From Flavobacteriales bacterium (GTDB lineage: Bacteria > Bacteroidota > Bacteroidia > Flavobacteriales_D > Sanyastnellaceae), in contig CANIBZ010000002.1 of assembly GCA_947466425.1 (NCBI GenBank), forward strand, positions 1 to 64,000: a stretch of 64,000 nt of DNA, in the 5' to 3' direction. A program made the translations under genes and the position numbers. This document shows, piece after piece, positions 1,454 to 59,153 of the stretch. Position 1 is the stretch's first letter. Each line of letters starts with the position of its first letter. Under the pieces are notes generated by a model that was given only the letters and a program-made list of their open reading frames with translations, was not told the origin of the DNA and ran no database searches.

Positions 1454-1734
1454 AATTGTTATGAACAATTCGCCCGAATGTTGCATAGCAACGAATGTCC
1501 GAAGGACTAATGTTGGCAGAGCCAACGAATGTGCAAAAGCACGAATGTCCGAAGGACGAATGTTGACTCTGTCAACGAATGCGGGAGGCGAATGTCTGGC
1601 GACTTAAATTAATCTTACGAAGTATCGTCTTCGACATTCGTTGGTGAAACCAACATTCGCCATTGGGCATTCGTCGAAGACATTCGTTGGCTCTGCCAAC
1701 ATTAGTCCTTCGGACATTAGTTGCTATGCAACAT
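1454..1734. repeat. Mini-hairpin array 1: variable hairpins on a CGAATG/CTAATG linker, folded into a larger inverted repeat
   Basis: Left half: AATTGTTatgAACAATT, TTGCataGCAA, TCCgaaGGA, TTGGCagaGCCAA, TGCaaaaGCA, TCCgaaGGA, TTGACtctGTCAA separated by CGAATG/CTAATG. Right half carries CATTCG/CATTAG linkers with TTGGTgaaACCAA, TTGGCtctGCCAA, TCCttcGGA, TTGCtatGCAA. 1481-1532 is the reverse complement of 1680-1731 with one mismatch. Confidence 0.93.
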
Positions 1735-32886: not shown

Positions 32887-32890
32887 GATG

Positions 32891-32959
32891 TATCAAAGAT
32901 ACGAATGTCCTGTGGACTAATGTGCGAAGCACGAATGTCCTGCTGACGAATGCCGATGG
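32891..32959. repeat. Mini-hairpin array 2 (CGAATG linker family)
   Basis: TATCaaaGATA-CGAATG-TCCtgtGGA-CTAATG-TGCgaaGCA-CGAATG-TCctgctGA-CGAATG-CCgatGG. Confidence 0.88.
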
Positions 32960-46103: not shown

Positions 46104-46168
46104 GGGCGAAAAATATTTCGCCCGTATTAAGAAAAATATTTCGCACGGAAACGAAATATTTTTCGCCC
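46104..46168. repeat. Nested hairpin element, GGGCGAAA/TTTCGCCC family
   Basis: GGGCGAAA-AATA-TTTCGCCC (46104-46123); GAAAAATATTTCG...CGAAATATTTTTC (46131-46164, 13-bp arms); 46104-46120 is an exact inverted copy of 46152-46168 (17 nt). Confidence 0.9.
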
Positions 46169-46200
46169 AAGAATTGAATAAAAAAAACAAAAAAATAAAA

Positions 46201-55343: not shown

Positions 55344-55754
55344 TTATTTGAAAATGGATTTTAGAATCGGTAGAGACTTTCTGCTTTGATAAACCACGAT
55401 GATGTTACAAATGAACGTTGCAACAGCAAGGTAGAATACCTTTCCATCATCGCCTTCCACCTCAATTCCTAGAATCATTAAATGCGTTAACAACGCTCCT
55501 GAGATAAGCCCGAGAGAAAGCGCTGCACCGTAATGACTGTTTTTCGGCCACAACAAAAGCAATCCAGCGATTAATTCCCCAACACCTGTTCCAATGCGCC
55601 CGTAGGGTTCCATGACATGATTCCAATGCATGAAGGTGTCAATAGATCCAAAAATAAATTTAGAAACGGCAGCTCCCGTGAACTTGAAGTAAAGTGTTTG
55701 TAGCAAAATAACTGCAGGGAAATAACGCAGGGCGTAGAATAGAATATTTGACAT
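55344..55754 (-). CDS. DoxX-like membrane protein
   Basis: LYFKFTGAAVSKFIFGSIDTFMHWNHVMEPYGRIGTGVGELIAGLLLLWP. Confidence 0.75.
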   Translation of the reverse strand: MSNILFYALRYFPAVILLQTLYFKFTGAAVSKFIFGSIDTFMHWNHVMEPYGRIGTGVGELIAGLLLLWPKNSHYGAALSLGLISGALLTHLMILGIEVEGDDGKVFYLAVATFICNIIVVYQSRKSLPILKSIFK

Positions 55755-55798
55755 ATGAGTTGAATGAAAATCAAATATACAAAACGCAAAGCGATAGT

Positions 55799-55939
55799 TC
55801 CACTTTGTGGATTAATCCCGAAGGGATATATCCGCTCTGCGGACCAATCCGCTTCGCGGACTTATCCTGAAAGGACTTATCCGCTTCGCGGACTTATCCT
55901 GAAAGGACTTATCCGCTTCGCGGACTTATCCCGAAGGGA
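55799..55939. repeat. Mini-hairpin array 4: nine perfect hairpins on 4-nt linkers
   Basis: TCCACtttGTGGA-TTAA-TCCCgaaGGGA-TATA-TCCGCtctGCGGA-CCAA-TCCGCttcGCGGA-CTTA-TCCTgaaAGGA-CTTA-TCCGCttcGCGGA-CTTA-TCCTgaaAGGA-CTTA-TCCGCttcGCGGA-CTTA-TCCCgaaGGGA. Confidence 0.96.
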
Positions 55940-55940
55940 A

Positions 55941-56357
55941 TTAGATGTACTTCGCCAAAAACTTATTATGCTCGTGACGAAGATCGTTAATAGTCGTCTC
56001 CAAAGAAGTATAACGATCACGCAAAGCGTCATGCAGGACAAGCGTTTCGGCATAAATGTGTTGTGCCATTGTTATAGCTTCGGAGCTAACTTTTTTTGCG
56101 AATGAACCGATATCATGTGCTAATTGATCTATATTGTTTCGTTGGACGATGAATTGATTTTGAAAGTGTTCGACATTCTCTTTCAATTCGGCCATTGAAT
56201 TATACATGCCAGAAACATCGCTTAGTCGGTGGTTGTGAATTTGCAATTCTTGCTTGTAGAATATCAGTCCGCGCTGCCAATCGTTTTGCTCGTTGCTCAT
56301 TCTTGAGATGTGAAAAGTGTTGTGTTTAGACATAAATGGTGTTATTTGTAGAAACAA
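55941..56357 (-). CDS. hypothetical protein, helical
   Basis: 138 aa; predicted helical and coiled-coil-like; no family recognised. Confidence 0.58.
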   Translation of the reverse strand: MFLQITPFMSKHNTFHISRMSNEQNDWQRGLIFYKQELQIHNHRLSDVSGMYNSMAELKENVEHFQNQFIVQRNNIDQLAHDIGSFAKKVSSEAITMAQHIYAETLVLHDALRDRYTSLETTINDLRHEHNKFLAKYI

Positions 56358-56452: not shown

Positions 56453-59089
56453 GTGTTTATGCACGTTTCAGACGTACTTTCGCTGTTGCAAAATTTGTCA
56501 ATGGGAAATAGTTTGGGAAAGAAAATAGGTTCGTTTATAGCGCTTATTATTTTATCGCTTTCAGCGAATGCCCAATGCATTGTTATAAATGAGGTTATGG
56601 TAAATGCCGCGGGAGGCTGCGATGGCGGATGCACTCCAAGCACGGCAGAGTGGGTGGAACTTTACAACACCTGCAACACTCCTCAAGATATTTCATGTTT
56701 TGTCTTAACCGATGGAGATTTTGGAGTCACTTTTCCTGTAGGAACAATTATTCAGCCCTATAGTTTTTTTGTCGTTGGGTCATCTAATTCAGGAACAACG
56801 GTTAATCTCGATTTAGGCACTTGTGGTTGCACATCTGGACCAACTTCGCAAGTTGGAATTTTCACGAATAGCGCGGAGCAATTGGCTTTTGTAAATCCTT
56901 TGGGGATTATCTTGGATGGTCTGTATTGGGGTGGTGGACAATTTGCGCAAACACCTTCCTTCACCACTGCGAATACAGTCGGTTGTCCAGATGTAACTGT
57001 AATTCTTTCGGCAAGTGATCCAGCACTTGTATCAGTAAGCGGACAATCGAATAACGATGGTCAATCGATATACAGAGAATGCGATGGAACGAATGTGTGG
57101 TTAACAGGAGCAACAGTTCCGACACCCGGAACTTCAAATTCGCTCTTCATTCCAATTACTTCAACTCCAACAATTGTCCAACCCTCATGTGGAACCAGCG
57201 GTTCCATAGATGTAATCATTTCAGGTGGGGTAGGGCCTTTTACATACGAATGGCTGGGAACCACGAATATCACTCCGAACATAGGAAACCTTCAACCAGG
57301 TATTTACACTTTGGCAGTCACCGATCAAGGTCAGTGCGGAACTCCGCAGTTGTTTAACTACACAATTTCGGCTTCTCCAACTGATCCTGTTTTACTTGTT
57401 GCCGCAACTTCGCTGTCCATTTGCTTAGGAGAATCAACGACACTAACAGCGAGTGGCAGCGCGAATTATGTGTGGAACGCAGACCCTACTTTGAATACAA
57501 ACCTGGGTGCAACGGTTATTGCAACTCCTACAATAAACACTACCTACATTGCGAGCGCTACCATTAACGGTTGTGCACAAACAGCATCTATTACTGTAAA
57601 TGTATCAGAAGCACCAGTTTCTTCAATAAATTCCAATTCTCCTCTGTGTGAAGGAAGCGCTTTGACTTTGAATGCAGCTCCGGTTGCAGGAGCAACCTAT
57701 TTGTGGAGTGGCCCGAATGTATTTTCTTCTTTAAGTCAAAATCCAACAATAGCAGGTGTTTCGCCATTATCGGGAGGAACATATACATGCCTGGTCGCGA
57801 TTGGGAATTGCTTTTCCACCTATACTACCAATGTTGTTGTTGACGCGGCAACACCTTCATTTATTGATCCTGCAGGCCCCTTTTGTATTTCAGATGCGTC
57901 TTTCGATTTGAGCTCTCCGAATGAGCCAGGCGTGTGGAGTGGATTGGGAATAACCAATGCAAACTCAGGATTGTTTCTACCAAGCGCTGCAGGCGGAAAT
58001 GTGAGCTCACTAATTACGTTCGACAGCGATAGCTATTGCACTTCACCTTCCACCTTGAGTATTTCTGTTGCAGCAGTATTAGATGCTTCAATTTCATCAC
58101 AAGTTCCCTTGTGTGTAAATGGAAATCCTATCCAACTTCAAGTTGCGAATGCCGGAGGAACATGGAGCGGGAACGCGGTTAATTCAAGCGGAACGGTAAG
58201 TCCAGCGGCCCTCGGAGTTGGAACATTTCAAGCGATTTATACCATAGCTGGTAGTTGCGGGGGAGCTGATACATTGAATATTCAAGTGGTTCCGCTTCCA
58301 CAATTTAATTTTTCTTCGAATGTAACAACAGGGTGTGCGCCGTTGAATGTGCAATTCAACAGCTCATCTGCTTCAGCATTGTCTAGTTGCATTTGGAGTA
58401 TTGATGGTCAGAATGTTGGAAATGGATGTGGAAGTTTCAATTACAATTTTCAATCAGCTGGATGTTTCACTGTTGCATTAACATCAACCGACGGAAATGG
58501 ATGCTCGAATACCGTTGCGATTACAGACATGGTGTGTGTGGATTTATTTCCTGAAGCAGCGTTTCAATGGACTCCTATCACACCTTCACTGAATAATCCA
58601 ATAGTTGAATTTTCAAATTTGTCTTTGGGCAACACAACGAATCAATGGGACATCAATGGCGAAATATCTAGCAACGCAGATGCTCAATACACCTTCAACG
58701 AAACCATTGGCAGTTCATTTGAAGCATGTTTGGAAGTTAGCAATCAATACGGATGTGCAGATTCAGTTTGTTACACCGTCTTTGTCAACCGCGAGGAAAT
58801 GGTCTTTGTTCCGAATTCATTCTCGCCCAATGACGACGGACTAAACGATGTATTCTTTCCAGTCCTTTCAGGATTCAATTTGAATGAAATTCAATATGAA
58901 TTTGGAATATACAATCGATACGGCGAACGCATCTTCTATTCGCAAGATCCTGAGCAAGCATGGATTGGCAACGCTTTCGGAAACGAATACTACACGCAAA
59001 TAGATGGCTACACCTGGACTTTGCGAATCATCACCTCTTCTTTCTCCGAACCCATTGAACTAACGGGTTCGGTTGTAATCATCAGATAA
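56453..59089 (+). CDS. lamin-tail-domain-containing secreted protein with PKD-like domains and T9SS type B C-terminal domain
   Basis: CIVINEVMVNAAGGCDGGCTPSTAEWVELYNTCNTPQDISCFVLTDGD (LTD); C-terminal MVFVPNSFSPNDDGLNDVFFPVLSG...YEFGIYNRYGERIFYSQDPEQAWIG. Confidence 0.88.
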   Translation: MFMHVSDVLSLLQNLSMGNSLGKKIGSFIALIILSLSANAQCIVINEVMVNAAGGCDGGCTPSTAEWVELYNTCNTPQDISCFVLTDGDFGVTFPVGTIIQPYSFFVVGSSNSGTTVNLDLGTCGCTSGPTSQVGIFTNSAEQLAFVNPLGIILDGLYWGGGQFAQTPSFTTANTVGCPDVTVILSASDPALVSVSGQSNNDGQSIYRECDGTNVWLTGATVPTPGTSNSLFIPITSTPTIVQPSCGTSGSIDVIISGGVGPFTYEWLGTTNITPNIGNLQPGIYTLAVTDQGQCGTPQLFNYTISASPTDPVLLVAATSLSICLGESTTLTASGSANYVWNADPTLNTNLGATVIATPTINTTYIASATINGCAQTASITVNVSEAPVSSINSNSPLCEGSALTLNAAPVAGATYLWSGPNVFSSLSQNPTIAGVSPLSGGTYTCLVAIGNCFSTYTTNVVVDAATPSFIDPAGPFCISDASFDLSSPNEPGVWSGLGITNANSGLFLPSAAGGNVSSLITFDSDSYCTSPSTLSISVAAVLDASISSQVPLCVNGNPIQLQVANAGGTWSGNAVNSSGTVSPAALGVGTFQAIYTIAGSCGGADTLNIQVVPLPQFNFSSNVTTGCAPLNVQFNSSSASALSSCIWSIDGQNVGNGCGSFNYNFQSAGCFTVALTSTDGNGCSNTVAITDMVCVDLFPEAAFQWTPITPSLNNPIVEFSNLSLGNTTNQWDINGEISSNADAQYTFNETIGSSFEACLEVSNQYGCADSVCYTVFVNREEMVFVPNSFSPNDDGLNDVFFPVLSGFNLNEIQYEFGIYNRYGERIFYSQDPEQAWIGNAFGNEYYTQIDGYTWTLRIITSSFSEPIELTGSVVIIR

Positions 59090-59103
59090 TCGCGAAGCAA
59101 TCG

Positions 59104-59153
59104 TCGAAGACATTAGCCTCCGGCATTCGTTGCTCTGCAACATTCGCCTTCGG
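59104..59153. repeat. Mini-hairpin array 3 (CATTCG/CATTAG linker, reverse orientation of arrays 1-left and 2)
   Basis: TCgaaGA-CATTAG-CCtccGG-CATTCG-TTGCtctGCAA-CATTCG-CCttcGG, ending 1 nt before the stop of the 59154-59594 gene. Confidence 0.9.

Follow-up and report, generated by a model that had tools for sequence, protein, structure and literature searches.

Mini-hairpin chains with constant 4-nt linkers at gene 3' ends in a genus of Flavobacteriales: probable REP-like palindromes in a new layout

The window analyzed here is a stretch of 64,000 nucleotides from a 2.59-Mb draft genome of a Flavobacteriales bacterium (the host, G000; 116 contigs, 86.5% complete), and it was compared with further sequence of the host and with eight further genomes of the genus. 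Between two co-oriented minus-strand genes the window carries a string of nine mini-hairpins, and the features of this locus are as follows.

55344..55754, minus strand: co-oriented gene downstream of the array, coding for a small membrane protein (MauE match weak and below cut-off)
55799..55939, minus strand: array of family F1, nine perfect mini-hairpins with stems TCCAC/TCCC/TCCGC/TCCT, 3-nt loops and 4-nt linkers
55847..55943, no strand assigned: 32-nt tandem repeat within the F1 array (TRF, 95% match), present in 3.0 copies of two hairpins each
55941..56330, minus strand: upstream gene, small protein with no family above cut-off, stop codon at 55941-55943

A sequence-only reading had described nine perfect hairpins with 3-nt loops and 4-nt linkers at 55799-55939, and this description proved exact on re-parsing, the hairpins being located (sequence and parser) at 55799-55811, 55816-55826, 55831-55843, 55848-55860, 55865-55875, 55880-55892, 55897-55907, 55912-55924, and 55929-55939. 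The stems are perfect and 4-5 bp long, the loops in order are ttt, gaa, tct, ttc, gaa, ttc, gaa, ttc, and gaa, and the linkers on the plus strand are TTAA, TATA, CCAA, and five times CTTA, which makes them TAAG-type on the gene strand. A chain of more than four hairpins was never obtained in shuffles of the whole window. The last hairpin does lie, as had been claimed, 1 nt from the stop codon of the upstream gene (55941-55943), while the far end of the array is 44 nt from the start of the downstream gene. Past the array, a conserved flank at 55770-55795 reads TATATTTG on the gene strand, which we take to resemble the Bacteroidota -7 promoter element, and given this flank the downstream gene may have its own promoter. 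Hairpins 4 to 9 also form an ordinary tandem repeat with a two-hairpin unit of 32 nt, and because of this only five distinct hairpins occur in the array (TCCAC-ttt, TCCC-gaa, TCCGC-tct, TCCGC-ttc, and TCCT-gaa). The earlier claim that stems vary with full compensation thus holds in that pairing is kept, but part of the compensation is copying; likewise, the claim that this is not an ordinary tandem repeat stood for the constant linkers and the varying yet paired arms, but not for hairpins 4 to 9.

As free RNA, the window array is predicted to be more stable as one rod than as nine hairpins. The predicted energy was -72.7 kcal/mol for one long rod on the gene strand in comparison to -43.8 for shuffled sequences (z -7.3), and the z value for the opposite strand was -5.5. 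When only short-span pairing was allowed, nine separate hairpins were predicted, at -52.9 on the gene strand in comparison to -42.8 on the other, and the greater stability on the gene strand comes at least partly from additional G-U pairs contributed by the TAAG-type linkers. Among units with one mismatch, 16 of 23 were wobble-type, with no clear G-U bias on the gene strand by which a strand could be decided. Intrinsic terminators, which the arrays resemble in placing G+C-rich hairpins past stop codons, were considered and rejected for the window array, as they require a T run per hairpin: none was found after its individual hairpins, and there is a single weak terminator-like site, at the distal edge only.

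The window array belongs to one of at least five linker-defined chain families in the genus, designated F1, F2, F3, F4, and F6. The unit layout is shared and consists of a 4-nt linker, a variable perfect stem (mostly 4-5 bp, at most 7) and a 3-nt loop, repeated head-to-tail with one polarity in runs of up to about 19 units. A second, inverted arm is often added, which yields bipartite arrays in many cases of F2, F3, F4, and F6, single-polarity arrays being also common. The families are distinguished as follows: (i) F1, a TAAG/CTTA-like linker in the pattern GGA-NNNN-TCC between stems of TCC plus C, T, AC, or GC; (ii) F2, linker GAAT (ATTC on the other strand), stems starting with G and about 25 arm types; (iii) F3, linker TCAA; (iv) F4, linker TCAT/ATGA and about 20 arm types; (v) F6, linker AAGA(T) and 10 arm types. 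The window itself also contains the following F2 arrays.

1480..1588, minus strand: bipartite F2 array, left arm, with GAAT as the plus-strand linker
1641..1732, plus strand: right arm, ATTC/ATTA linkers on the plus strand, the last hairpin containing the stop codon of the right-hand gene
32890..32946, minus strand: short F2 array
59102..59153, plus strand: F2 array that takes up the whole spacer of two convergent genes; in G005 an F4 array stands in its place

In F2 arrays (e.g., at L031, L036, and L128) the distal end often consists of a fixed last unit, GTCTTCGAC, followed by linker-less sequence, and it looks as if these arrays possessed a defined end. A separate palindromic repeat, GGGCGAAAAATATTTCGCCC, with partial copies, one of them inverted, was noted by a gene start at 46105-46170 of the window.

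To measure pairing without presupposing it, units were excised by their linkers alone, and the control consisted of 3' arms re-dealt among units of the same length. The percentage of perfectly paired units was 97% for F1 in comparison to 52% with re-dealt arms, 91% in comparison to 50% for F2, 91% in comparison to 33% for F4, and 93% in comparison to 31% for F6, which bears out for these four families the earlier proposal that the linker is conserved while the stems vary and still pair. For F3, whose short 4-nt delimiter admits chance matches, the values were 58% and 17%. F5 (linker CCTC) probably counts as a sixth family, and no more than probably because its pairing was 38% in comparison to 24%. 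An ordinary tandem repeat, in which linker and insert would be equally conserved, was rejected as a reading: the linkers are constant, whereas the arms vary and keep their pairing. Most loops are 3 nt long; the closing pair was C-G in 364 of 435 triloops and T-A in 68, and GNA or TNC made up 51% to 78% of triloops depending on the family. C(GNA)G is a motif of exceptionally stable DNA mini-hairpins (PMC4686876), and triloops of this kind thus point to single-stranded DNA as much as to RNA.

We also counted, with no prior choice of linker, all 4-nt linkers between neighbouring 3-nt-loop hairpins in 853 kb of host sequence. The results showed 32.5 occurrences of ATTC in comparison to 1.7 in shuffled sequence, 16.5 in comparison to 1.3 of TCAA, and 5 in comparison to 0.2 of ATGA, and the CAAA/CCAA/CTTA/TACA/CTAA set, which is family F1, was enriched as well. 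Chains that had three or more hairpins and a recurring linker numbered 21 in the 853 kb of G000, a sample partly picked for F1 hits, and 9 in 400 kb of G005; in unselected sequence there were 10 in 775 kb of G000 and 6 in the 360 kb of G005 contig 1. No such chain occurred in shuffles of either sample, in 709 kb from about 30 other genera (381 kb from the same family and 328 kb mostly from other genera of the order), or in the 200 kb sampled from G007, a genome of the same genus. Of 299 genomes of the order, 7 carried an F2 signature, and these seven belong to this genus; a GTDB-wide scan with one F2 signature returned five stretches, of which three are apparently chance and two lie in F2 chains, namely the F2 array of a lake MAG that is apparently G004 and a 6-unit F2 run in a Flavobacteriales MAG. 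With the F1 signature, the 299 genomes of the phylum gave only single matches outside the host, none of them chained where inspected. Copies in the genome and in relatives, which the sequence-only reading had proposed to look for, are accordingly many, and its view that neither a simple tandem repeat nor one REP accounts for the array agrees with this recurrent layout of fixed linker and varying paired stems. A contig end (L007) and a run of N (L069, about 1545-1645) fall inside hairpin arrays, and short-read assemblies therefore probably undercount them.

With respect to genes, array edges lie mostly at, inside, or within a few tens of nucleotides of a stop codon, and the stop codon is often contained in the first hairpin. 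Spacers 60-1500 nt long and bordered by a called gene at either end were compared by orientation: divergent spacers were avoided (4 of 32 spacers with arrays in comparison to 120 of 362 without, p 0.016), and convergent ones were enriched (9 of 32 in comparison to 33 of 362, p 0.003), some of the divergent cases possibly being errors, as the simple gene caller misses short genes. In F2, F3, and F6 the stop-adjacent arm has one fixed reading direction relative to the upstream gene (GAAT, TCAA, and AAGA, respectively) in 20 of 20 stop-abutting arrays in non-convergent spacers, corresponding to 17 of 17 independent sites (p 1.5e-5), while F4 shows no polarity (5 to 4) and F1 a weak one. The earlier idea of an RNA-structured operon spacer would fit the position at 3' ends and the polarity, but the arrays are tied to the upstream stop codon and not to operon spacers in themselves, as convergent spacers are enriched.

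The same gene ends in related species were then compared, and the family was found to be exchanged at four orthologous sites. At the window-array site F1 is present in G000, G003, and G001, and G005 has a bipartite F4 array in the same interval, with the flanks CAAAACGCAAAGC and TTAGATGTA common to G005 and the others. The site at 1398-1723 of the window holds F2 in G000, G001, and G004 and F4 in G005, and that at 59089-59153 holds F2 in G000 and G001 and, in G005, an F4 array that ends at the same stop codon. At the L020 site on host contig 1, F3 occurs in G000, G005, and G004, F4 in G001, and F2 in G003, where the array begins at the same conserved flank, GAGGAGAGTCACAT, although the original arrangement of the two flanking genes is not retained in G004 and G003. 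At two other orthologous sites the family is constant and the stems and unit number differ. The array-7 site has 8, 7, 6, 2, and about 2 decayed units across five species. Unit number, stems, and even linker family thus vary among species while the array stays at the gene end. In G001 (L059) the gene matching 55941-56330 is missing beside the array and the junction lies at the array edge; arrays may therefore promote deletions.

How stems change could be followed at the window array, where G000 and G003 differ at 10 of 141 positions, all in one 27-nt patch. Two stem pairs were changed on both sides (G-C to A-T and T-A to C-G), and one-sided changes numbered zero. Since the G000 version of the patch is identical to its own neighbouring units, the compensation at this site would most simply reflect copying of a two-hairpin unit, and the earlier suggestion of replication-templated palindrome expansion is to this extent favoured, as a mechanism of change. 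Duplications of two units (32 nt) and of three units were also seen. The remaining part of the array, about 113 nt, shows no difference at all between the two genomes, in comparison to 83% and 77% identity in the flanking genes; either selection or recent exchange between species could account for this.

Among known systems, REPs come closest. They often lie no more than 20 bp from the 3' end of a gene, sometimes provide its stop codon, form GTAG and CGTC super-families, and lie mostly in unidirectional and convergent spacers (PMC3733652). The arrays share with them short intergenic hairpins near gene 3' ends in unidirectional and convergent spacers and the presence of several families per genome, but they consist of many head-to-tail units with a constant 4-nt linker, their stem sequence varies within a family, and families are exchanged at orthologous sites. 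Neither a GTAG nor a CGTC tag was among the enriched linkers (ATTC, TCAA, ATGA, and CTTA/CAAA/CCAA/TACA types), and chain stems, mostly 4-5 bp and up to 7, depart from the fully paired basal stem of 7-20 nt used as a search rule for REPs (PMC6006769). BIMEs and REPINs, whose basic module is a pair of inverted units, are likewise composite, and some arrays here have two inverted arms, but chain units are mostly direct, up to about 19 per run, and without a REP core. IS200/IS605 and RAYT systems are similar in the tetranucleotide before the hairpin, which TnpA-REP reads 5' to the hairpin foot (PMC6006769), and differ in that no consistent transposase partner was found in the genus; in REPtrons each family has a cognate Y1 gene flanked by the same repeat, whereas the Y1 genes here are accompanied by other hairpins. 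As tag, stem length, direct constant-linker chains, and RAYT partner all disagree, the arrays are not members of the described REP super-families. The TAACTGA heptamers of Beggiatoaceae, Cyanobacteria, and some Bacteroidetes are also short intergenic direct repeats beside genes, but in the best-studied genome they lie mostly upstream of start codons, with no paired inserts and no predicted structure (PMC4679880). Sponge mitochondrial hairpin elements are structurally divergent hairpins that repeatedly invaded spacers; they are organelle elements, and the abstract of their description mentions no linker-defined chains (PMC2800124). No Rfam 15 match above the gathering score was obtained in the window, and no description of the repeat sequence or of tandem hairpins in Bacteroidota emerged from the literature searched. 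The strings therefore resemble REPs but fit no described family found.

The best reading is that the arrays are REP-like extragenic palindromes in a new layout, mini-hairpin chains at gene 3' ends. That they are REP-like 3'-UTR hairpin elements, putatively transcribed and changed by unit copying, we consider to have about an even chance of being correct, and the arrays would most likely act on transcripts. An array would be transcribed along with the upstream gene and form an RNA structure, either a rod or a hairpin chain, which may set the mRNA 3' end or slow 3'-to-5' decay and may separate neighbouring cistrons; with function residing in RNA structure, any linker family would do. In the course of change, whole hairpin units would be duplicated in tandem and copied, and both arms would thereby remain matched. 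This reading is favoured by edges at or inside stop codons with depletion of divergent and enrichment of convergent spacers, the polarity of F2, F3, and F6, the exchange of families, the presence of repeated-linker chains in G000 and G005 in comparison to none in shuffles and in 709 kb of other genera, the pairing of linker-only units in F1, F2, F4, and F6, and the predicted folding on both strands. Against it, a neutral or mobile element would also be tolerated at the 3' position, the C-G-closed GNA/TNC triloops are of a DNA-stable type, F4 and F1 have no or weak polarity, one-mismatch units lack a clear G-U bias on the gene strand, and the G007 sample is without chains.

It is also conceivable, albeit somewhat unlikely, that the arrays are a distinct class of 3'-end element, with the lineage requiring or favouring linker-coded chains at set gene ends while the sequence family is exchanged wholesale; if true, this would mean either selection on sequence-independent structure or an unknown enzyme writing chains with a family-specific 4-nt linker.

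Mobile DNA and neutral palindrome expansion remain serious rivals to action on transcripts. In the former, which we hold to be doubtful, selfish or passive REP/MITE-like hairpins would be moved by a single-strand HUH (IS200/RAYT-like) enzyme with the 4-nt linker as guide tetranucleotide, landing past stop codons as insertions are tolerated there. TnpA-REP reads a layout of this kind, linker plus hairpin (PMC6006769), the C(GNA)G triloops are stable as DNA, several families coexist and replace one another at a site, and two host Y1 transposase genes each lie within about 300 nt of a chain. RAYT mobilisation, suggested by these two genes, nevertheless failed on the distribution in the genus, where Y1_Tnp genes occur in only 4 of 9 genomes and are absent from the array-rich, 96% complete G003, and on the nearby hairpins, which differ in sequence (AGCCCC..GGGGYGAMAT); moreover, neither a clean empty site nor a target duplication was encountered, and decayed units persist in the shortest orthologue (array-7 site, G001). 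As an observation on the Y1 (IS200-like) genes themselves (L016 1489-2007, L017 1483-1941, and L082-L085), AGCCCC-N3-GGGGYGAMAT hairpins, full or partial, are found at 6 of 6 loci, an arrangement that is REPtron-like and unrelated in sequence to the chains.

Neutral expansion is less likely still. Template switching and slippage would multiply hairpins in functionless spacers, quasi-palindrome correction would repair the arms, and linkers would be alike because units are copies, in agreement with the 32-nt two-unit and the three-unit duplications, the confinement of all 10 G000/G003 differences to a patch equal to neighbouring units, and the range of about 2 to 8 units at one orthologous site. 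Plain copying, however, would homogenise stems like linkers, whereas stems are diverse; a polarity set by the stop codon, and an array that persists when its family changes, are not expected; and the identity over about 113 nt outside the patch stands against the 77% to 83% of the flanking genes. Putative binding arrays, in which a sequence-specific protein would recognise the linker as RNA or DNA and hairpins would only set spacing, are very improbable: conservation is indeed highest in the linker, which is non-palindromic in F2, F3, F4, and F6, but with at least five linkers per genome and exchange at one site, either an equal number of proteins or a very relaxed recognition would be required.

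That perfect stem covariation here arises partly from whole-unit copying calls for caution when structured RNA is sought by covariation. REP-like palindromes are widespread in bacteria, and the reason for their gene-end position and their mode of multiplication are still open questions; related lake species with at least five interchangeable versions, in several cases at the same gene ends, provide a natural swap experiment that can separate structure from sequence.
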